Source of the DNA: Niabella soli DSM 19437
Lineage (GTDB): Bacteria; Bacteroidota; Bacteroidia; Chitinophagales; Chitinophagaceae
Direction: 5' to 3'
DNA: 64,000 bases
Assembly: GCF_000243115.2 (NCBI RefSeq)
Contig: NZ_CP007035.1
Span: forward strand, 4,633,344 to 4,697,343
The notes under the pieces were generated by a model that was not told the DNA's origin, searched no databases, and saw nothing but the letters and a program-made list of their open reading frames with translations. Positions 10,481-20,997 of this stretch are shown here, one piece after another. Numbering within the stretch: position 1 is the first letter of the stretch; the number at the start of each line of letters is the position of its first letter. Both the position numbers and the translations under genes were made by a program.

Positions 10481-12106
10481 ATGAACGGTATTAAAACAAA
10501 ACGGATAATTTTTTTAATAGCTGCTGTTTTTCTTTGTGTTGTGCAGGTCGCCGCGCAGGAATACCAATGGTCTGTGCAATTGAAAAACTATATATCTGCC
10601 GAAACAAATGAAGCGCCTGATGCTTTTTTATGGATTCCGGACAACTGCCGGCAGGTGCGGGCGGTGATTGTAGGCCAGCATAATATGTGTGAGGAAACGA
10701 TCTTTAATAATCCGGGTTTTCGACAAACCCTTCGGGCGCTGGGCTTTGCGGTTATTTGGATTACACCGGGCATAGATCAGCGATGGGATGTAAAAAATGG
10801 TTGTCAGCGCGTTTTTGACAATATGATGAAGGATCTTGCCGATGTAAGTGGTTATAGTGAGCTGGAGTTTGCACCTATTGTTCCATTGGGGCATTCGGCA
10901 ATGGCGACCTTCCCCTGGAATTTCGCCGCGTGGAACAAGAACCGGACATTAGCGGTGATCTCCTACCATGGCGATGCGCCACGAACCAACCTTACCGGAT
11001 ACGGACTGGAGAATCTTGAGTGGGGCAGAAACAGGAATATTGATGGCATCCCTGGTTTGATGATCGAAGGAGAATATGAATGGTGGGAAGCAAGGGTGAA
11101 CCCGGCTTTGGCATTCCGAATGATGTATCCTGAGAGCTGTATTTCTTTTTTATGTGACGCCGGGCATGGTCATTTTGATGTGTCTGACGAAGTGATAAAC
11201 TACATCTGCCTGTTTTTAAAAAAAGCCGCGCAATACCGGCTGCCGGAAAACCAGCCATTGAATAAACCCGTGCCACTGCTCAATGTCAATCCTGGAAATG
11301 GCTGGCTGGCCCGGCGATGGGAGCCTTTTTCTTCAAAACGGCCACTTCCCGCGCCAGTGGCGCAATACAAAGGTGACCCCCATGATGCGTTCTGGTATTT
11401 TGATGAAGAGATAGCGGAAACAACCGAAAAATACTATGCGCATGAAAGAAAAAAAATGCCGCAATATATTAGTTTCTCCGCTGCTGGAAAGCTGTTTCCT
11501 TTCGATGCCCAAAGCCATGCGCAGTATAATGCAGGCGCATTGAAGCCTGAAGGCAAAACATTGGCCATTCATTTATCCGCTGTATTTACCGATTCACTTC
11601 ATCAGGCCTATTCGAAAGCTCATTCAGGTATACCAACAGGCATCGAGCGCATATGTGGCCCGGTAGAAAAAATAAATGATACAACCTTTGCTCTACGATT
11701 TTATCGAATGGGGTTAAATAATGCAAAACGTACTAATGATGTCTGGTTGGCGGCTTATAACAAGGGAGATAGCATCTATAAAAGTACGGTGCAGCAGTTT
11801 AACTTTAAAGTAGTGTACCCGCTTACCGAAGGAAAACCTCAGCATATCTTATTTCCCGCAATAGCGGATGTAAAAGAAGGAACTGAATATGTCAGACTGA
11901 ATGGGGAAGCTGACAGCGGATTGCCGGTTTATTATTATGTGCACCAGGGACCAGCAAAAATAGTTGGTAACAAGATTGTATTTACAAAAATACCCCCAAG
12001 GGCTAAATACCCGGTGAAGGTCACACTAATGGCGTGGCAATATGGAGTGGAAGGAAAAGTACAATCTGCCCCACCGGTGGAAAGAAGTTTTTACATAACC
12101 CGATAG
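10481..12106 (+). CDS. Secreted alpha/beta-hydrolase with C-terminal beta domain, possible carbohydrate esterase
   Basis: A 541-residue protein with a signal peptide ending QVAAQ (~26). Residues ~45-255 look like an alpha/beta-hydrolase: a nucleophile elbow GHSAMA with Ser139, a candidate acid in EGEYEWWE (~196-203) and a candidate histidine at His231 in GHGHFD. The remaining half (~275-541) is beta-rich and unassigned. Position between the arabinofuranosidase and the second lyase suggests that it removes ester groups (acetyl, methyl or feruloyl) that would otherwise block the other enzymes, as esterases in such loci often do. I do not recognise a named CE family, so substrate and class are inference. 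The start at 10481 is 9 bases after the upstream stop. Confidence 0.6.
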   Translation: MNGIKTKRIIFLIAAVFLCVVQVAAQEYQWSVQLKNYISAETNEAPDAFLWIPDNCRQVRAVIVGQHNMCEETIFNNPGFRQTLRALGFAVIWITPGIDQRWDVKNGCQRVFDNMMKDLADVSGYSELEFAPIVPLGHSAMATFPWNFAAWNKNRTLAVISYHGDAPRTNLTGYGLENLEWGRNRNIDGIPGLMIEGEYEWWEARVNPALAFRMMYPESCISFLCDAGHGHFDVSDEVINYICLFLKKAAQYRLPENQPLNKPVPLLNVNPGNGWLARRWEPFSSKRPLPAPVAQYKGDPHDAFWYFDEEIAETTEKYYAHERKKMPQYISFSAAGKLFPFDAQSHAQYNAGALKPEGKTLAIHLSAVFTDSLHQAYSKAHSGIPTGIERICGPVEKINDTTFALRFYRMGLNNAKRTNDVWLAAYNKGDSIYKSTVQQFNFKVVYPLTEGKPQHILFPAIADVKEGTEYVRLNGEADSGLPVYYYVHQGPAKIVGNKIVFTKIPPRAKYPVKVTLMAWQYGVEGKVQSAPPVERSFYITR

Positions 12107-12114
12107 TATTTTAT

Positions 12115-14205
12115 ATGATGACTGATAAATTTAAGTGGACGGTTGAATGGAACCTTGTGATCTCGGCATTTAAAAGAGTAGGGGCACTGCGTTATTGTTT
12201 TACTGGAACGATAGTACTATTGGTTACCACACATTCGATAGCCCAGCGTTTTACTCACCCGGGTATTCTGCTTGGCAAAACAGATATTGAGCGGATGCAG
12301 GTTGCTGTGCGATTAAAACAACAGCCGGTTTTTTCGGGATATGAAGTATTTGCCAGAGATCCGGCATCTCAATTTAACTATAAAATGCAAGGGCCTCTGG
12401 AAATGGTTGGCCGTAATCCGACGGTGGGCCAGTCGACTTATGATAATGACGCCAATGCCGCTTTTCAAAACGCGGTCATGTGGGCGATAACCGGCGACAA
12501 AAGATATTCCGAAAAATCAATAGCGCTTATTAATGCCTGGTCCCAAACGCTGAAATCGATCACCGGTCGTGATGCTATACTCATGGCGGGTTTGGGCCCC
12601 TTTAAAATGGTTAATGCTGCGGAGATTATCCGGTATACACATGCAGGGTGGAAAGAGGTCGACATTAAAATGACCGAGAAGCATTTTAAAGAAGTGGTTT
12701 ATCCCATCTTAAAAGATTATGCGCCTTTTGCCAATGGGAACTGGGATGCTGCTGCCATGAAGACCTGCCTGGCAATAGGCGTATTTTGTAATGACCGGGA
12801 AATATTTGAAGCCGCTTTAAGCTATTATACCCATGGATGGGGAAATGGTAGTTTAAAAAATTACATTATAAACGCCGCGGGCCAGATACAGGAAAGCGGG
12901 CGCGACCAGCCTCATTCCCAATTAGGTATTGGCATGTTGGCTGAATGCTGCGCCATTGCCTGGAACCAGGGGCTGGATTTATATGCTTATGATGACAACC
13001 GCCTGCTAAAAGGTTTTGAATATGTGGCGAAATATAATTTGAACAATGATGATATGCCTTTTGAGGAATGGCTGGATAGAACCGGTAAATATCATCATTA
13101 TAAAATTTCAGATAAGGGCAGGGGTGCGCTAAGGCCCTTGTTTGAGCAGGTGTATGCGCATTATGTGGTGCAACAAGGGATGAAAGCGCCTTATGTGGAA
13201 GCGGTGGTGAAAAAGCTGCGGCCTGAAGGAGCGGGGAGACCCGGTGCCGATCATCCCGGTTATGGAACGTTGTTTTTTGCCTGGGTAAATGATCAACCAC
13301 CGTTGGGGGAAAGAAAGTCTGCAAAGCCTGCCGCACCTGCTGGTCTTGTAGCATTGGGAAAAAGCAGCGCTATTTCATTGTCATGGATCAAAACCATTGG
13401 CCGAAACAATACCTATATTATTAAAAGAGCAAAAAGCCTGGCAGGGCCATTTGTTCAGATCGCAAAAAATATAGCCGCCGATACTTTTGTTGACCGTGCC
13501 GTCAAAAACACTGAGCAATACTATTACAGCATTGAAACGGTAAAAGACAAACAACGAAGCGTGGATGCTTTTCCCCGTGCGGCAGTAGCGGGCCTTCCGA
13601 AAGGTTGGCGCCAGACCGACATAGGGGCAATCAAAACCGGTATAAGCTATTACAACGGCACGCAACTTTGTATTGATGCTTCCGGAAAGGGTATCGGCGC
13701 TATAACCGACGCTCTGCATTTTACATATACCGGAGTTACGGAACGCGGGTCTTTGATCGTCCGTATCTTGCCTCAGCCCAGTTCTCAATTTTCGGTTATA
13801 GGGATTATGCTGCGGGCAGATACCACAACTGGGGCGCCGTTCGTAACCTTATCCCTATATCCGGGCAAAACTGGCCAGCCCGAAGAGCCGGATTGGCATA
13901 CGCGCCTGGAAAGCCGTACGGCGAACGGGGCAGAAACGAAGCTTATTGCAAAAGGAGGAAACCTTACCACCCAGGCAGCAACTTTCGGACGACTTACCGG
14001 CTGTTTTTGGTTAAAGCTGGAGAAAAAAGGAGATGAAGTTGCCGCTTATACTTCGTATGACGGGAACAGTTGGGGGAACACGGGTCGTACAACAATTCAT
14101 ATTGGTGCAACTGGCCTGTTGGGCATTTCAGTGGCATCCGGTATACAGAATAGCACTAAGGTGCGTATCGATAAACTGAAAAGTGACGGGACGGTTAATT
14201 TATAA
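12115..14205 (+). CDS. Second alginate-lyase-fold polysaccharide lyase with FN3-like and jelly-roll C-terminus
   Basis: About 696 residues from the ATG at 12115; an in-frame GTG at 12160 would give a more usual signal peptide, so the start is uncertain. Residues ~45-395 repeat the lyase blocks of the protein at 803: HPGIL at the start, GNWDAAAMKT near 208, GQIQESGRDQPHSQ near 256 and a closing HPGYGTLFF. Residues ~410-490 resemble a fibronectin type III domain, and ~500-696 a DUF1349/concanavalin-like sheet with FWLKLEKKGDEVAAYTSYDG. No lipobox is present, unlike its paralogue, so it is probably periplasmic or secreted. It should eliminate at uronic acids; the added beta domains probably bind glycan. 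The two lyases may split chain ends and internal sites, which is speculation. Confidence 0.75.
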   Translation: MMTDKFKWTVEWNLVISAFKRVGALRYCFTGTIVLLVTTHSIAQRFTHPGILLGKTDIERMQVAVRLKQQPVFSGYEVFARDPASQFNYKMQGPLEMVGRNPTVGQSTYDNDANAAFQNAVMWAITGDKRYSEKSIALINAWSQTLKSITGRDAILMAGLGPFKMVNAAEIIRYTHAGWKEVDIKMTEKHFKEVVYPILKDYAPFANGNWDAAAMKTCLAIGVFCNDREIFEAALSYYTHGWGNGSLKNYIINAAGQIQESGRDQPHSQLGIGMLAECCAIAWNQGLDLYAYDDNRLLKGFEYVAKYNLNNDDMPFEEWLDRTGKYHHYKISDKGRGALRPLFEQVYAHYVVQQGMKAPYVEAVVKKLRPEGAGRPGADHPGYGTLFFAWVNDQPPLGERKSAKPAAPAGLVALGKSSAISLSWIKTIGRNNTYIIKRAKSLAGPFVQIAKNIAADTFVDRAVKNTEQYYYSIETVKDKQRSVDAFPRAAVAGLPKGWRQTDIGAIKTGISYYNGTQLCIDASGKGIGAITDALHFTYTGVTERGSLIVRILPQPSSQFSVIGIMLRADTTTGAPFVTLSLYPGKTGQPEEPDWHTRLESRTANGAETKLIAKGGNLTTQAATFGRLTGCFWLKLEKKGDEVAAYTSYDGNSWGNTGRTTIHIGATGLLGISVASGIQNSTKVRIDKLKSDGTVNL

Positions 14206-14209
14206 ATCA

Positions 14210-15850
14210 ATGATAAAAAATATTCAATATTTTATATTGATTGCAGTGGTAACGCTGATTGAGTTGAACTCCCTGAATGCACAATCCTCCTATATCTCAA
14301 AGGTGTGGGTGTCGGATAATGGCGATGGTACCTATAAGAATCCTGTTTTAAATGCCGACTATTCCGACCCTGATGTTATCAGGGTTGGAGATGATTTCTA
14401 TATGACGGCTTCCAGCTTTAATTGTACGCCAGGGTTGCCAATTCTGCATTCGAGGGACATGATAAACTGGAGCATTATCAACCATGCTTTAAAAAAGCAA
14501 ATTCCTGAAGAATCGTTCAATACGCCACAACAGGGGAAAGGAGTTTGGGCTCCATCTTTTGCCTATCATAATAATGAATTGTACATATATTATCCCGATC
14601 CGGATTACGGCATTTACATGATCAAAACTAAAGATCCTGCAGGAGAGTGGAGCCGACCGGTAATGGTATTGTCCGGTAAAGGGATTATTGATCCTTCGGT
14701 GTTCTGGGATGATGACGGGAAGGCCTACCTGTCTGTAGCCTGGGCAGCGAGCCGTGCGGGGGTAAACAGCCTGCTCACTGTTTTTAAAATGAATAGGGAA
14801 GGTACTTCGGTAATTGATGAAGGGAAACATATCTATGATGGTCACGGGATGGATCACACCGTTGAAGGCCCCAAGTTTTATAAAAGAAATGGCTACTATT
14901 ATATTCTATGCCCGGCTGGTGGTGTCGCTACGGGGTGGCAGCTTGCGCTTCGTTCAAAAAATATTTTTGGCCCCTATGAGCGAAAGGTGGTAATGGTTCA
15001 GGGCAATACCGGCATCAATGGCCCGCATCAGGGAGCGTTGGTCCAAACGCCAAAAGGATCAGATTGGTTTTTTCATTTTCAGGATAAAGGCGCTTATGGA
15101 AGAGTGGTGCATTTGCAGCCGGTACAATGGAAAAACGATTGGCCGGTCATTGGCGATGATAAGGATGGTGACGGCACGGGAGTACCGGTCATGCAATTCA
15201 AAAAACCGGATATTGGTAATGTTTACCCTACACAAACTCCGGCAGAAAGCGATGAATTTAATAATGATGGCTTAGGACTGCAATGGCAATGGCAGGGGAA
15301 CCCTAAAATACAATGGAGCGCTTTAATACGAAAGAGCGGATTTTTAAGACTATTTGCTGTTCCTTCAGACACGGGGCGGAATTTATGGTCGGTGCCCAAT
15401 TTGCTTTTGCAAAAGTTTCCCGCACCTTCTTTCACCGCCACTGTTAAAATAAAATGGAATATAGAATGGGATGTTTATCAAAATAAAAAAGCGGGCCTGA
15501 TTATTATGGGGGATGATTATGCTTATCTGGATATTCATAAAACGGACAAGGGCTTTTTTGTCACACAGGTGATTTGTAATGATGCTGTAGGTGGTGGTCC
15601 CGAACGTACGATAGAAACCAGGGCGCTTAAAGACAGTGTTGTTTACCTGAGTGTGCATGTGGGTGCCCCCGATGCAAATTGTGTCTTTAGTTACAGTGAT
15701 GATGGCGTTCGTTTTAACAACATCGGCGTTCCATTTAAGGCCCGGCCTGTTAAGTGGACCGGGGCTAAAATAGGGTTGTTTTCTGTGGCAACCCCTAAAG
15801 AACGAATCGGTGGATATGCAGATGTGGACTGGTTCAGAATTACTAAATGA
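14210..15850 (+). CDS. GH43 family beta-xylosidase/alpha-L-arabinofuranosidase
   Basis: A 546-residue protein from the ATG at 14210, with a signal peptide ending SLNAQ (~25); this start lies 4 bases after the upstream stop. Residues ~42-330 are a five-bladed propeller with the GH43 acids in place: Asp53 in YSDPDVIRVGDDFYM (base), Asp161 in IDPSVF (pKa modulator) and Glu219 in TVEGPKFY (acid). Residues ~350-546 match the C-terminal concanavalin-like sheet found in the larger GH43 xylosidase group (GH43_C2 type). It removes arabinofuranose or xylose from the ends of side chains. It is the last gene of the operon; no clear rho-independent terminator follows. Confidence 0.87.
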   Translation: MIKNIQYFILIAVVTLIELNSLNAQSSYISKVWVSDNGDGTYKNPVLNADYSDPDVIRVGDDFYMTASSFNCTPGLPILHSRDMINWSIINHALKKQIPEESFNTPQQGKGVWAPSFAYHNNELYIYYPDPDYGIYMIKTKDPAGEWSRPVMVLSGKGIIDPSVFWDDDGKAYLSVAWAASRAGVNSLLTVFKMNREGTSVIDEGKHIYDGHGMDHTVEGPKFYKRNGYYYILCPAGGVATGWQLALRSKNIFGPYERKVVMVQGNTGINGPHQGALVQTPKGSDWFFHFQDKGAYGRVVHLQPVQWKNDWPVIGDDKDGDGTGVPVMQFKKPDIGNVYPTQTPAESDEFNNDGLGLQWQWQGNPKIQWSALIRKSGFLRLFAVPSDTGRNLWSVPNLLLQKFPAPSFTATVKIKWNIEWDVYQNKKAGLIIMGDDYAYLDIHKTDKGFFVTQVICNDAVGGGPERTIETRALKDSVVYLSVHVGAPDANCVFSYSDDGVRFNNIGVPFKARPVKWTGAKIGLFSVATPKERIGGYADVDWFRITK

Positions 15851-16206
15851 CCCTTCCCCTTCTCGTATGAATTAAAAGATTTATGGATGCTGCATTTTTT
15901 CGGTGTCTTTAAGCTCAATAATTAACTGGGCCTCCATATTGAAATATAAACCTGCATTGTTTTGTCTGTAGCTTTGGTTATTTGAGGTAAAAAAATATTG
16001 CCCATTCCTTGTGAATCAATGCGCCGCTGGTTCCAATCCTTTTCGAATCCTCTCAGATCGTATCAAAAAAAATGATACAACTGTATGGGATACAATAGGT
16101 TAACCGCTATTGGGTGAGTGCAAAATCCGTGCCCGTAAATACTCACCGATTTACTCACCCGAATTAGGCTATTATTTGAAATGATTTGACAAGCTGTAAA
16201 AAAATA
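15851..16206 (+). other. Non-coding stretch after the polysaccharide operon
   Basis: No gene is supported here. The 3' flank of the GH43 gene carries no clear hairpin with a T run. Between about 16105 and 16165 the motif GTGAGT/ACTCACC occurs three times, twice inverted, and could fold; I cannot assign a role. The stretch around 16025-16055 has a tRNA T-arm-like TTCGAATCC, but no cloverleaf can be drawn. Confidence 0.4.
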
Positions 16207-16238
16207 AACCCTTGCAAATCAAAATATTTGCAAGGGTT
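16207..16238 (-). terminator. Rho-independent terminator of the tRNA-Pro unit
   Basis: A perfect 13-bp stem (AACCCTTGCAAAT paired with ATTTGCAAGGGTT) with a six-base loop. Read on the minus strand it is followed by TTTATTTTTTT, as expected for termination downstream of the tRNA at 16263-16336. Confidence 0.8.
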
Positions 16239-16262
16239 CAACCGGAATTGATATCCTTTTTG

Positions 16263-16336
16263 TCGGGATGACTGGATTCGAACCAGCGGCCTCTTCGTCC
16301 CGAACGAAGCGCGCTACCGGGCTGCGCTACATCCCG
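16263..16336 (-). tRNA. tRNA-Pro, anticodon CGG
   Basis: A complete cloverleaf of 74 bases can be drawn on the minus strand: acceptor stem CGGGATG with CATCCCG, D stem GCGC/GCGC, anticodon stem CTTCG/CGAAG around loop TTCGGGA (anticodon CGG, reading proline CCG), T arm with loop TTCGAAT, and discriminator A. The CCA end is not encoded. It is cotranscribed with the tRNA-like copy at 16363-16448, because the only promoter-like sequence lies in front of that copy and a terminator follows this gene. Confidence 0.95.
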
Positions 16337-16362
16337 CGCAAAATTTCTTCACAAGTTATCGA

Positions 16363-16448
16363 TCGGGAAGATGGCGTTTCAGGCGCCACGCGGCCTCTCC
16401 GTCCCGAACGAAGGGCGCTATCCCGCCACAGCGGGACGCTACATCCCG
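16363..16448 (-). pseudogene. Degenerate tRNA-Pro(CGG)-like copy with D-loop hairpin and abnormal T loop
   Basis: An 86-base sequence lies 26 bases upstream (minus sense) of tRNA-Pro and is clearly related to it. It keeps the 5' acceptor strand CGGGATG, the anticodon loop TTCGGGA with CGG, a compatible anticodon stem (CTTCG/CGGAG) and the variable loop AGGCC. The D loop is enlarged to 17 bases and contains its own hairpin (CCCGC-TGTG-GCGGG). The T arm still pairs (TGGCG/CGCCA), but its loop is CCTGAAA instead of TTCGAAT, and the 3' acceptor strand CTTCCCG has one mismatch. It is not a standard tRNA; it is either a decaying duplicate or a tRNA-like RNA. A promoter-like box stands directly in front of it. 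Confidence 0.75.
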
Positions 16449-16457
16449 AATGGGAGA

Positions 16458-16465
16458 CAAATATA
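16458..16465 (-). promoter_or_regulatory. -7 box (TATATTTG) in front of the tRNA-Pro-like/tRNA-Pro unit
   Basis: On the minus strand TATATTTG matches the Bacteroidota -7 consensus TAnnTTTG and ends nine bases before the first base of the tRNA-like copy. No good TTTG is seen at the -33 position, only TTTA-rich sequence. Confidence 0.5.
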
Positions 16466-16588
16466 AATGATAGTTAATAAATTTTTTATAAACGAAAAAG
16501 ATTTATTCAGGCAGCGATAGCTATTAGCAGGTGTTATAGTATCTTTCGATAAGAAACTTGCCTTAAAATCAGTTGAACCTCTCTGCCA

Positions 16589-18994
16589 ATGAAAGCAAAA
16601 CAAAACGGTATTTCAAGAAAAGCCTTTTTAGGAAACCTGGCCCTTGGTGGGTTACCTATCATCTTGTCTCCAAAAGATCTTTTCAATGGCCAGCTTTTCA
16701 GAACGGCAGCAAACGGTTTTATTCCGCAGGTCATTCCGCTGAGCACGGGGTGGAAGTTTAGACCGCATGCGGGAACGATTGCACGGCAGTCGGAACAGAC
16801 GGTAACGATCCCGCATTGTGTTTCGAATCTTTCCTGGCAGGACTGGGACCCTGCATCCTGGCAGGCATTATGGCAGTATCAAAAATCATTTGAGTTACCC
16901 GCTGCTTTTTTGAATGAGCGGGTCTTCGTCCATTTTGATGGCGTTATGGTGGGTGCGGTGGTGCGCATAAACGGCCAGGAATTACCGTCACATTACGGGG
17001 GCTATCTGCCTTTTGAATATGAAATCACACCTTATGTAAAAAAAGAGAATTTGCTTGAGGTTATGGTAGATGCCCGCTGGAGCAATGTGCCTCCGCAAGG
17101 GTCGGTTAAAGGGGCTGCCCGGGTCGATTACCTGGAGGCAGGCGGAATTTACCGCCCGGTTTCTCTAAAGATAGTTCCCAAGATCTTTATACAGGATGTT
17201 TTTGCAAAACCGGTGGATGTATTAAACCCGGGGCGAAATGTTTCGGTAAAATGCACGCTGAACACTTCCGTTGCTCCGGTAAAAAACGCAGCGCTGGAAG
17301 TTACTTTGGTAAAAGAAGACAAAACCGTTGCCGCTACCCGTACTGCAGTAATAATAGATAAGACGGGAACAAAAGAAGTTGCGGTTACGCTGAGTGATCT
17401 AAAAAATATCCGGCTCTGGGATATAGATACTCCCCATCTTTATGGGGTTATTGTAAGACTTTATATCGATAACAGCATGGTGCACTGCTATAAAGAGCGG
17501 GTTGGCTTCCGGGAAGCTGCATTTACAACCGACGGATTTTTTTTAAACGGAAACCGCTTGCAGCTTTTCGGATTAAACCGGCATGAAATATTCCCTTATG
17601 TGGGCGGTGCAATGCCGGCCCGGGTGATGAAAAATGATGCGTTGATCCTGAAAAAGAAATTGAACTGTAATATGGTGCGCTGCTCGCATTACCCGCAATC
17701 CACCGCTTTCCTGGATGCCTGTGATGAACTCGGGCTGATGGTATGGGAAGAAGTTCCGGGCTGGGGCTATCTGGGTGATGAGCAATGGAAGGAGCTGCTG
17801 GTGCAAAATACAAGAGATATGGTACTGCGCGACAGGAATCATCCGTCAATAATTATTTGGGGCGTACGGGTAAATGAATCTCCTAATGACCCGGTGCTGT
17901 ACCGGCGTACTAAAGCAATAGCAAAAAATCTGGACGGCAGCAGACCCACTTCGGGCAGCATGACGCCGGATAGCATGAAAACCTGGAAGGAAGACTGGCA
18001 TCAGGATGTGCTGGCATTTGATGACTATCATGCTGATCCTGATGGAAACGTTGGGATCAACGAACCGGAGAAAGGCGTTCCTTACATGCTGGCAGAAGCA
18101 GTGGGGCAATTTAATTACGCAAAGCGAAAAAATTTCGACAGTTATTACAGACGATCGGGAACTATTGCCACGATGCAACATCAGGCAATCTGGCATGCTC
18201 AGGCGCATCAAAAAGCTAGGTTAAATAAACACAATTGCGGGGTGATTGCCTGGTGCGCTTTTGAATATGCCAGTTTGGTTAATCATTACAGAACCGTAAA
18301 ATATCCCGGCGTGGCCGATTTTTTCCGGGTTCCGAAATTAGGAGCTTCCTTTTATATGGCGCAAACAGATCCGTTACTACGCCCGGTAATTGAGCCGGAT
18401 TTTTACTGGGATTTTGGAAGGGAAACGCCGCATGGCCCCGGGAAAAATGTGGCTATATTCTCTAACTGCGACCGATTAGAACTGTATATTAATGATACCC
18501 TCCACGGCAGTTTACAGCCGGATATAAAAAACTTTTACAACCTAAAGTATCCTCCGTTTTTTGGGGATCTGGAGTGGAAAGGAACCGGGTTGCCGGAATT
18601 GAAAATTGTCGGCTATCTCAAAGGAAAGCGTTTATTGAGCCGGCGATTTTCGGCCGATCGTCAAAAGGACCGGCTTAGGATGATAGCGGATGATCCGGAG
18701 CTTACAGGTGACGGGGTAGATGCCACCCGCGTGGAATTTGGAATTACGGATGCCTATGGCAATTACAGGATAGGGGGCAAAGGGATCGTGCAATTTCAAA
18801 TCAGTGGCCCCGGGCAGCTTATAGGCGATAATCCATTTAATTTGAATGAAAGCGGCGGGGTGGCCGCTGTCTGGATCAGGACGCAGCCAGGTGGTTCAGG
18901 CAAAATAGTGGTAACCGCTTTGCACCCGGAATTGGGTAAACAAAAAGTGGAAATAGGGGTGCTGCGCGCTAAGGTTAAATCAACGCTTGTTTAA
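16589..18994 (+). CDS. GH2 family beta-glycosidase (beta-galactosidase-like)
   Basis: An 801-residue protein with a Tat-like N-terminus (SRKAFLGNLALGG). GH2 domains follow in order: sugar-binding jelly roll (~45-195), immunoglobulin-like domain (~200-305), TIM barrel (~310-600) and a C-terminal beta-sandwich (~680-795). Glu430 in VRVNES is the acid/base and Glu503 in LAEAVGQFNYAK the likely nucleophile; NMVRCSHYPQ and WEEVPGWG are conserved barrel blocks. Beta-galactosidase, beta-glucuronidase or another beta-glycosidase are all possible. It is separated from the polysaccharide operon by the tRNA unit and about 740 bases, so it is transcribed separately, but it may share the substrate. Confidence 0.85.
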   Translation: MKAKQNGISRKAFLGNLALGGLPIILSPKDLFNGQLFRTAANGFIPQVIPLSTGWKFRPHAGTIARQSEQTVTIPHCVSNLSWQDWDPASWQALWQYQKSFELPAAFLNERVFVHFDGVMVGAVVRINGQELPSHYGGYLPFEYEITPYVKKENLLEVMVDARWSNVPPQGSVKGAARVDYLEAGGIYRPVSLKIVPKIFIQDVFAKPVDVLNPGRNVSVKCTLNTSVAPVKNAALEVTLVKEDKTVAATRTAVIIDKTGTKEVAVTLSDLKNIRLWDIDTPHLYGVIVRLYIDNSMVHCYKERVGFREAAFTTDGFFLNGNRLQLFGLNRHEIFPYVGGAMPARVMKNDALILKKKLNCNMVRCSHYPQSTAFLDACDELGLMVWEEVPGWGYLGDEQWKELLVQNTRDMVLRDRNHPSIIIWGVRVNESPNDPVLYRRTKAIAKNLDGSRPTSGSMTPDSMKTWKEDWHQDVLAFDDYHADPDGNVGINEPEKGVPYMLAEAVGQFNYAKRKNFDSYYRRSGTIATMQHQAIWHAQAHQKARLNKHNCGVIAWCAFEYASLVNHYRTVKYPGVADFFRVPKLGASFYMAQTDPLLRPVIEPDFYWDFGRETPHGPGKNVAIFSNCDRLELYINDTLHGSLQPDIKNFYNLKYPPFFGDLEWKGTGLPELKIVGYLKGKRLLSRRFSADRQKDRLRMIADDPELTGDGVDATRVEFGITDAYGNYRIGGKGIVQFQISGPGQLIGDNPFNLNESGGVAAVWIRTQPGGSGKIVVTALHPELGKQKVEIGVLRAKVKSTLV

Positions 18995-19124
18995 TAACCT
19001 AAGACACTTGTTAATCGTGAAATGTCAAACGATAAACATGGGAAGTTTACTTCTCCCGTCATGATACGCTGTTTTACGAGTAAGACCTCACCGGGACAAT
19101 AAGGTTAAAAGCCAGGTAATACCC

Positions 19125-19946
19125 TTATTTTTCCACGTTTCTTTCGCTATTGACCGGCAACTGCGGACCATTTAAATGCACTACATTCTTTTGCTGCCGC
19201 TTTCGCATTACCATGTTCAGCAATTCTACTGTAAAGGAAAAAGCCATGGCAAAATAAATGTAATTCTTTAAGTGCAGTTCATGTGCGGCGTCGGCATTCC
19301 AGCCCTCAATGATCAAACTTACACCGATCATTACCAGGAACGACAGGGCCAGCATTTTGATAGTAGGGTGCTTCATGATAAAGTCCGATATGCGGGCGCT
19401 GAAGGTAAACATTACGAACATGGCAACAATCACTGCCGCGATCATGATCTCGATATGTTTGGCCGTACCGCCAGCGGTTATTACACTATCAAAGGAAAAT
19501 ACGGCATCAATTACCAGGATCTGTCCTATTGCCTGGCTAAAGCCCAGTGGTTTTTGGTTGGTGGATGCGGTTGCCGGATCTTCACCTTCCAGCTTGTGAT
19601 GGATCTCTTTTACCGATTTGTAAATAAGAAATAAACCGCCGGCGAGCATAACGATGCTTGCCAGGTCAAACCCTTTTCCCAGCCACGATTCGGGGATAAT
19701 GTACTTTCCCTTTTGGCTCAGCAACCAGCTAAGGGCCGCCAGCAGCAAACACCGGGTAATAATGCCGGTGAACATCCAGGTCCGGCGGGCTTTTGGCCGG
19801 AGGTCTTTCGGAAGCCTGTTTAAAATGATACTTACGAAAATAACATTGTCGATCCCGAGCACGATTTCCAGCACCGCAAGGATCAGGAAGCTGATTAGTG
19901 ACTCCATGGTGAATATTTCGGAAGCCGAAATAAATAAAAAAGGCAT
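19125..19946 (-). CDS. TerC family integral membrane protein
   Basis: A 273-residue protein with about seven hydrophobic segments and the TerC hallmarks: LEIVLGIDNVIFVSI near residue 26 and DAVFSFDSVITAG near 150, whose acidic residues within membrane helices are thought to handle divalent metals. Bacterial relatives are linked to tellurite resistance and to manganese export during secretion. A later Met at 19907 could also be the start, but relatives often carry a short N-terminal lead like this one. The gene lies 10 bases after pyrD on the same strand and is probably cotranscribed with it. Specific function is not readable. Confidence 0.88.
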   Translation of the reverse strand: MPFLFISASEIFTMESLISFLILAVLEIVLGIDNVIFVSIILNRLPKDLRPKARRTWMFTGIITRCLLLAALSWLLSQKGKYIIPESWLGKGFDLASIVMLAGGLFLIYKSVKEIHHKLEGEDPATASTNQKPLGFSQAIGQILVIDAVFSFDSVITAGGTAKHIEIMIAAVIVAMFVMFTFSARISDFIMKHPTIKMLALSFLVMIGVSLIIEGWNADAAHELHLKNYIYFAMAFSFTVELLNMVMRKRQQKNVVHLNGPQLPVNSERNVEK

Positions 19947-19956
19947 ACTGTTTGGG

Positions 19957-20997
19957 TTATAGATTTTTGCAGATATTTTTTACAATAGCAGGTCCTTCGT
20001 ATATAAACCCCGTCCATATTTGAACCAACGCTGCTCCCGCGGCCATTTTTTCTTTGGCATCCTCACTGGTAAAAATACCTCCCGAGCCAATAATGGGGAT
20101 ATGGCCATCTGTTTGTTCAGCTATGTATTGAATCAGCGCCGTGCTTTTGGATTGAACGGGTTTGCCACTCAATCCGCCTGCGCCAATAGCAGCGAGGGTC
20201 ATTTCGGGCGTGTTTAAATTACTCCGGTCGATGGTAGTATTAGACACCACCAGCCCGTCCAGTTTTATTTCAAGCGCCAGTGCAATAACATCGTCCACCT
20301 GCTCCTTTGTCAGATCGGGCGCTATTTTCAAAAGCACAGGTTTGGCAAAAGCCTTGCCGTTGTTGATCATTGCCAGGTTCAGCAATATTTTTCTTAGTGC
20401 GTCTTTGTCCTGCAACGCCCGTAGTCCGGGTGTGTTGGGGCTGCTTACGTTCACTACAAAATAATCCACAAAATGATGCAGCTTATTAAAGCAGGTGGCG
20501 TAATCCTCCCAAGCATTGTCGTTGGGTGTTATTTTGTTTTTGCCAATATTGCCGCCAATGATTAAGGGGAAAGGATCTTTGCTGCCGGCTTTTCTCTCTC
20601 TCCATGCCTCCAGGCGCCGGGCAATAGCGTCGGCCCCCTCGTTATTAAATCCCATCCGGTTGATCAATGCCTTATCCGCCGGCAACCGAAACAGGCGGGG
20701 CTTTTCATTGCCATCCTGCGGCAGGGGCGTAACGGTGCCAATTTCTACAAAGCCAAAGCCCAGCGCTTCCAGCTCATTCAGGAATACTGCATTTTTATCG
20801 AACCCGGCGCCTAAGCCCACAGGATTTTTAAACCGGAGGTTTAAAAATCGGGTTTCCTTTAACGGCGGTTGGGTGATCGATTGCACCAGTTTTTTCCCCA
20901 CGGCGGTTTTTGTTAACAACTGAAGTTGCCGCATGGCCATGTAATGGGCCCGTTCGGGCTCAAAGTTGAAATAGATTTTGCGCAACAACTGGTACAT
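19957..20997 (-). CDS. pyrD: Dihydroorotate dehydrogenase (quinone), class 2
   Basis: A 346-residue FMN enzyme of pyrimidine synthesis that oxidises dihydroorotate to orotate and passes electrons to quinone. The amphipathic N-terminal helix region (YQLLRKIYFNFEPERAH) marks class 2, which associates with the membrane. Conserved blocks are PVGLGAGFDKNA (~60), GFVEIGTVTP (~78), NVSSPNTPGLRALQ with the catalytic Ser (~183), SNTTIDR (~252) and IPIIGSGGIFTSEDA (~305). Length and motifs agree fully with the family. The -7 box at 21003-21010 lies only five bases from the ATG, suggesting a nearly leaderless mRNA. Confidence 0.96.
   Translation of the reverse strand: MYQLLRKIYFNFEPERAHYMAMRQLQLLTKTAVGKKLVQSITQPPLKETRFLNLRFKNPVGLGAGFDKNAVFLNELEALGFGFVEIGTVTPLPQDGNEKPRLFRLPADKALINRMGFNNEGADAIARRLEAWRERKAGSKDPFPLIIGGNIGKNKITPNDNAWEDYATCFNKLHHFVDYFVVNVSSPNTPGLRALQDKDALRKILLNLAMINNGKAFAKPVLLKIAPDLTKEQVDDVIALALEIKLDGLVVSNTTIDRSNLNTPEMTLAAIGAGGLSGKPVQSKSTALIQYIAEQTDGHIPIIGSGGIFTSEDAKEKMAAGAALVQIWTGFIYEGPAIVKNICKNL

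Follow-up and report, generated by a model that had tools for sequence, protein, structure and literature searches.

An 86-nt sequence resembling tRNA-Pro(CGG), here called copy 1, precedes an intact tRNA-Pro(CGG) gene in the genome of Niabella soli DSM 19437 (G000), and most likely marks one edge of a tRNA-resident GIY-YIG element that has since decayed and that probably spread by homing-like recombination. Units of this kind share a common anatomy, recur in many genomes, are linked to particular tRNA kinds with a specificity that follows the phylogeny of their ORFs, occur in tandem, and are present in some species and absent from others. Copy 1 would be a tRNA-Pro gene that is dead and interrupted by two DNA palindromes, and would mark the left edge of a small mobile element from which the nuclease gene has disappeared here. 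This locus retains no GIY-YIG gene, nor does G000 contain a relative of the Pro-type ORF at E ≤ 1e-12, so this reading draws on one relative that carries an intact unit and on the wider pattern across genomes.

The tRNA-Pro Locus of Niabella soli

The window, which is the whole 64,000-nt stretch of contig NZ_CP007035.1 that was analysed, carries the following features at this locus:

16458-16465, minus strand: TATATTTG box, like the Bacteroidota -7 box; occurs before both copies in Niabella sp. BIN26 (G016)
16363-16448, minus strand: copy 1, a palindrome-interrupted tRNA-Pro(CGG) copy of 86 nt, interpreted as the left border of a GIY-YIG element that has decayed; its homologue in G016 is 86% identical
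16421-16436, minus strand: palindrome 1, TCCCGC-TGTG-GCGGGA, a 16-nt hairpin replacing the D-loop CAGCCCGG
16397-16413, minus strand: kept anticodon arm CTTCG-TTCGGGA-CGGAG, with anticodon CGG and one G-U pair
16372-16388, minus strand: palindrome 2, TGGCG-CCTGAAA-CGCCA, replacing the T arm CTGGTTCGAATCCAG
16337-16362, minus strand: 26-nt spacer, in place of the roughly 300 bp in G016 that hold a GIY-YIG ORF and a second promoter box for the tRNA
16262-16336, minus strand: intact tRNA-Pro(CGG), called by ARAGORN and by Rfam (66.7 bits)
16206-16239, minus strand: terminator-like hairpin and T run 3′ of the tRNA, by our own reading, with positions from a sub-threshold Rfam match

The first-pass annotation had described the box, the 86-base copy, the 26-base spacer, the intact tRNA-Pro(CGG), and the terminator-like hairpin, and this anatomy is confirmed on the minus strand, as are the D-loop hairpin and the T-arm hairpin with its CCTGAAA loop. 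Box, copy 1, tRNA-Pro, and terminator plausibly form one transcription unit in G000, where the TATATTTG box resembles what we take to be the Bacteroidota -7 consensus.

Copy 1 retains the letters of the tRNA up to GATGTAGCG, the D-arm TAGCGC, the anticodon arm, and AGGCCG. Its acceptor stem contains a T-T mismatch and is not full, and its T loop reads CCTGAAA and not a TTCGAAT type, all of which departs from a functional tRNA. Neither ARAGORN nor Rfam (E ≤ 1) calls a tRNA at copy 1, and only the intact tRNA-Pro is called. The fold is also not unusually stable (78 of 86 bases folded; z = -1.05), as 29 of 200 shuffled sequences fold as well or better.

The hairpins had been interpreted as old stems preserved through compensatory changes. 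They are instead palindromes substituted for the tRNA's own letters, and the pairing of CTTCG with CGGAG, offered as an example of compensation, reflects a one-sided change of A to G that gives a G-U pair. The break of copy 1 is palindromic, like those of the elements described below, while no GIY-YIG ORF lies between copy 1 and the intact tRNA in the window, and the locus is therefore classed as a relic and not as a member. Short palindromes in the window as a whole are little above shuffled sequence (46 with a stem of 7, compared to 27-47 in shuffles), and no group I intron was matched by Rfam at the locus (15500-17200, E ≤ 1).

A Counterpart with a Nuclease Gene

A homologue of copy 1 was found in one of 58 relatives, Niabella sp. 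BIN26 (G016; JAGIAQ010000007.1), where it is 86% identical. When 84,980 species genomes were scanned for this tRNA-Pro with its enlarged D loop, only the BIN26 record was returned, although records near that of the window were possibly excluded. The D-loop palindrome of G016, TCCCGC-CACA-GCGGGA, is the exact reverse complement of that in copy 1, and its T-arm palindrome reads TGGCGC-CCGGA-GCGCCA. Between the broken copy and the intact tRNA-Pro, the latter behind an identical promoter box of its own, lie about 300 bp, and an 82-aa GIY-YIG protein is encoded there (Pfam E 9e-15; G016:C219:3819-4019, also found by the family search). The order in G016 is thus broken copy, GIY-YIG ORF, and intact tRNA-Pro, which is the arrangement of the element, whereas the corresponding stretch in G000 has shrunk to 26 nt and the pairing of acceptor and T arm is poorer in G000 than in G016. 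In a third species, G007, a tRNA-Pro copy in tandem has TCCCGATTCAATCGGGA in place of its T arm, with no ORF seen in the short spacer. Copy 1 itself was found in two of 17 genus genomes, while five of the 17 gave no match at all, the intact tRNA included.

Small GIY-YIG ORFs at tRNA Genes

Fuller units consist of a tRNA 5′ part ending in a palindrome, a GIY-YIG ORF of about 80-100 aa, and an intact tRNA, often followed by a further palindrome and a tRNA 3′ part; alternatively, the ORF comes after the intact tRNA. By our own reading, 6 of the 40 tRNA genes in G000 have broken copies (Pro, Arg, Gly(TCC), Gly(GCC), Ser, and Met), and GIY-YIG ORFs directly adjoin those of Ser, Arg, and Met. Four of the seven small GIY-YIG ORFs of G000 have a tRNA in their locus, and three do not. 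Twelve relatives gave 69 GIY-YIG matches, including 41 small ORFs, of which 40 were examined (all except G112:C203); a tRNA is present in the locus of 29 and absent from that of 11. None of nine long GIY-YIG controls, drawn from 30 (28 in the relatives and two in G000), has a tRNA in its locus. Partial tRNA copies occur at 28 of 31 tRNA-linked loci in this first set, with none detected at the other three.

This pattern extends across the phylum. A profile of 21 such ORFs has at least one match in 90 of 148 phylum genomes (E ≤ 1e-10, G000 included), a count that also takes in ORFs without a tRNA. ARAGORN found a tRNA at 25 of 29 loci taken from the 30 best-scoring (L182, G000's own, was left out), which are thus not a random draw, and 22 of these 25 tRNA-linked loci have partial copies while three do not. 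Copies were searched with BLAST at E ≤ 0.02, which may miss worn copies, and boundaries and palindromes were read by eye. Palindromes lie at 34 of 44 breaks (23 of 28 loci) in the first set and at 30 of 46 (17 of 22 loci) in the phylum set, compared to 5 of 132 and 10 of 138 random segments from the same loci. These figures come from a repeat with defined breaks and random-segment controls of an earlier test, in which many of the 61 breaks (32 with P ≤ 0.05) were outer ends of copies.

Comparison of genomes reveals occupied and empty alleles. In G010, tRNA-Ser(GGA) stands alone behind its promoter flank. In G005, a palindrome-broken 5′ copy comes after the corresponding flank, followed by the intact tRNA, an ORF, a broken 3′ copy, and a partial second ORF before the same downstream flank is reached. 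Additional units are found in G009, and an ORF relic alone is left in G014. For tRNA-Pro, the comparison concerns presence or absence of the copy only, within Niabella. The intact tRNA is unchanged between occupied and empty loci for both Ser (G005 and G010) and Pro (G000 and G016 compared to G011).

ORF Types, tRNA Kinds, and the Nuclease Protein

The ORFs group by the kind of tRNA they accompany. On a tree of 40 rows, from which ORFs shorter than 70 aa, L127, L148, L181, and second tandem ORFs were left out, the 28 labelled rows require 10 changes of tRNA kind, compared to a mean of 20.6 and a minimum of 17 in 500 shuffles, while the genome label carries no signal (22 changes, mean 20.9). 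ORFs of the same tRNA kind tend to cluster across genera, though Leu, Ser, Arg, and Ala each fail to form a single clade. The tRNA-less ORFs form one clade of 11, plus L170. The site of the break is often typical of the tRNA kind as well: after CATA in Met, between GGAG and GAAAG in Ser(GGA), and between GAGCATC and GAGGGTC in Val. Within some kinds it varies, most of all in Pro, with copies broken in any of three places: the D loop, the anticodon arm, or the T arm.

Of 394 family genomes, 61 contain relatives of the G016 ORF. Among the 30 best, 27 lie beside tRNA-Pro, one beside tRNA-Leu, and two without a tRNA; the anticodon at the 27 tRNA-Pro loci is GGG or TGG, and in no case CGG. Partial copies are present at 25 of the 28 tRNA-linked loci in this best-scoring set and absent from three, as listed for up to two tRNAs per locus and four copies per tRNA. 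The TCCCGC D-loop device of copy 1 is present in G016, in L244 (three times), and in L247. A T-arm palindrome is found in L252 and L254, and Pro-linked copies in L248, L254, L256, and L263 have TGGCGC..GCGCCA at their anticodon arm. At L249 (1268-1342, minus strand), ARAGORN calls a tRNA-Pro(TGG) with the anticodon arm TCCCGC-TTGGA-GCGGGA, which looks like a palindrome-broken copy of the adjacent tRNA-Pro(GGG), so broken copies may be annotated as tRNAs.

In 21 ORFs, from G016 and relatives, the Y, Y, G, R, H, E, and K columns are invariant, and presumably have catalytic roles. Compared against structures, the ORF profile matches UPF0213 (E 2e-17) and SLX1 (E 1e-7), and I-TevI (1mk0) at E 0.005. 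Four of the 21 ORFs match a group I intron endonuclease family, with the one score shown lying below the cut-off.

Palindromes as Dispersed DNA Sequences

The TCCCGC palindrome is not confined to tRNA genes. TCCCGCN{3,8}GCGGGA has 39 sites in G000, compared to one for the reversed control, and TCCCGC..GCGGGA has at least one match in 108 of 117 sampled family genomes, not all of which exceed the control (G103 has four, control 23). A tRNA copy is recognised at four of 38 contexts read for the 39 sites in G000 (37 read together plus copy 1), namely copy 1, two at tRNA-Gly(TCC), and one at tRNA-Arg(TCT), while many of the remaining sites lie in other repeats. Since the arms of copy 1 are palindromes whose sequence recurs elsewhere, their pairing needs no selection on an RNA. 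The first-pass annotation had held that such selection kept the stems paired, which is not supported: in many genomes, palindromes of this kind lie where a tRNA copy next to a GIY-YIG gene is broken. Stems that pair within a tRNA-like copy are not in themselves a sign of selection on an RNA.

Two further candidates were set aside. TGGCG..CGCCA is not clearly enriched as a dispersed family in G000 (37 sites, control 27), and elsewhere the counts are 36 and 18 in G016, 18 and 6 in G007, and 29 and 56 in G005. A RAYT is also rejected as mover of the palindromes, as none of eight Y1 loci (of 10 Y1 matches in G000) has a TCCCG..CGGGA palindrome.

By eye, MITE-like repeats of about 100 bp with GTGTTTATAG-like ends occur in G000 (L062, L063, L065, L073, L087, and L091-L095), and these enclose TCCCGC-(CTCA/TGAG)-GCGGGA. 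At L088 (G000:C1:2435400-2436800), two tandem tRNA-Gly(TCC) copies have their T-arm letters CGAGTTCG replaced by TCCCGC palindromes; no GIY-YIG ORF is seen between them, and they are possibly older relics of the same kind.

Proposed Mechanism and Alternative Explanations

The nuclease would cut the matching tRNA gene, or a cruciform formed by its arms, and repair from an occupied copy would install the element. The host tRNA would thereby be split at the palindrome site, with the tRNA sequence of the element keeping one gene intact. Tandem arrays may arise by repeated insertion or by unequal exchange between tRNA pieces, and deletion may leave relics such as copy 1. Given that intact tRNAs are the same in occupied and empty loci, plain homing would cut its own carrier.

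A variant of this explanation, which we regard as possible though rather unlikely, addresses that point. Here the cutting would be structure-specific, with the GIY-YIG protein acting on the palindrome as a cruciform and the palindromes being ends of the element and not scars of the target, which would account for the intact tRNA needing no recoding. The closer fit of the ORF profile to the UPF0213 and SLX1 structures than to I-TevI is consistent with this, as are the palindromes at both edges of many units and the exact inversion of the D-loop palindrome between G000 and G016. However, ORF phylogeny tracks tRNA kind, which points to recognition of the tRNA sequence, the sequence of the palindrome differs within one tRNA kind, and the four matches to the group I intron endonuclease family, subject to the score noted above, also argue against it. 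It is improbable, by comparison, that copy 1 is just a common pseudogene from a tandem tRNA duplication and that short, dispersed mobile palindromes struck tRNA duplicates with no involvement of the nuclease. The dispersal of TCCCGC..GCGGGA in G000 and across the family favors such an origin, as do the broken copies of three G000 tRNA genes that have no GIY-YIG neighbor (Pro, Gly(TCC), and Gly(GCC)). Against this, all three G000 tRNAs with a GIY-YIG neighbor (Ser, Arg, and Met) have broken copies, compared to 3 of the 37 others, different genera often agree in where the break falls and in the type of palindrome for a given tRNA kind (for example Met, Val, and Ser(GGA)), and G016 carries the ORF at the very same copy. 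The annotation was nonetheless right to list a pseudogene among its options for copy 1.

Its other option, a selected tRNA-like RNA serving as a regulator or decoy, is very improbable, and nothing was found that points to an RNA with a job of its own. A promoter-like box does precede copy 1, and it is 86% identical between G000 and G016, compared to a difference of 48% at fourfold sites in the upstream gene. On the downstream side, however, fourfold sites differ by only 19-24%, and a difference of 14% is not clearly slow. Selection on copy 1 is therefore unproven, with an identity from two species that lies between the flanks' 48% and 19% fourfold difference and a copy present in two of 17 genus genomes; the poorer acceptor and T-arm pairing in G000 and the ordinary stability of the fold also speak against a selected RNA. 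Returning to the decayed GIY-YIG element as the preferred explanation, the chances seem to us evenly balanced that it represents an undescribed, phylum-wide class of mobile elements in tRNA genes. In such a class, a single-domain GIY-YIG nuclease specific to one tRNA kind would split that gene, the element would bring the missing tRNA part so that one tRNA stays intact, and palindromes placed at the cut site would serve to mark broken copies, to silence them, or to re-target them. Its behavior would resemble natural cut-and-rescue directed at an essential gene.

Relation to Known Systems

Several known systems share features with these units. REP palindromes with RAYT (Y1) transposases are similar in that short palindromes, scattered through the genome, go with a small nuclease gene, but here the nuclease is of the GIY-YIG type, the sites lie inside tRNA genes, and the eight Y1 loci of G000 that were examined lack the palindrome. 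Genomic islands with tyrosine integrases also insert in tRNA genes, keep one intact tRNA, and displace a partial copy. In contrast, the units described here measure about 300-420 bp, with a GIY-YIG ORF between tRNA pieces and palindromes in the broken copies. I-TevI, the homing endonuclease of a group I intron, has the GIY-YIG fold and is weakly matched by the ORF profile; unlike I-TevI, the window locus has no intron match, the ORFs span only 80-100 aa, and the broken copy has an intact tRNA gene as its neighbor.

Among the literature matches found, the nearest described system is SegB of the T-even phages, a free-standing GIY-YIG homing endonuclease of the tRNA clusters of phages T4 and T6 (PMC13096335, citing Brok-Volchanskaya 2008), and the element would accordingly be of the homing-endonuclease kind. 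In that account, the GIY-YIG gene lies beside tRNA genes, SegB cleavage sites lie within tRNA genes, and tandem tRNA-segB repeats arise by recombination (PMC13096335). SegB belongs to a phage tRNA cluster, and the part of its description that was available contains no palindrome-interrupted tRNA copies (PMC13096335). The element described here, unlike SegB, occupies host chromosomal tRNA genes, has ORF types tied to tRNA kind, and has broken copies at its edges. Among the literature matches listed by a full-text search (titles and openings of abstracts, from a corpus without subscription papers and preprints), none describes such elements in bacterial tRNA genes, and the available portions of Dunin-Horkawicz (2006; PMC1564403) contain no remark on GIY-YIG elements in tRNA genes.

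These elements account for a class of tRNA pseudogenes in Bacteroidota and suggest a target for many of the small GIY-YIG genes matched by the profile in the phylum. If the proposed movement is true, they would also show by what route short palindromes spread and how a selfish nuclease can survive within RNA genes that are essential.

Further Loci

Tandem arrays of GIY-YIG ORFs with a regular spacing of about 320-370 bp occur at G203:C34:6988-9772 (eight matches listed) and G280:C1:1384622-1385513 (three). At L127, tRNA-Arg(TCT) is accompanied by two near-identical tandem GIY-YIG ORFs, each with a tRNA-Arg 3′ half before it. L134 (G000:C1:3815919-3816029) has a truncated ORF resembling those of tRNA-Arg(CCG), with a short sequence similar to tRNA-Arg after it (blastn E 0.04), and is possibly a worn relic. 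In the window itself, divergence from G016 jumps at tRNA-Pro (12034-20997), with fourfold-site distances of 0.77 and 0.74 upstream, beside genes that by our own reading are GH2-like and DHODH-like, and of 0.22 and 0.29 downstream, on the GH43-like side, as if one side of the locus had been exchanged more recently.
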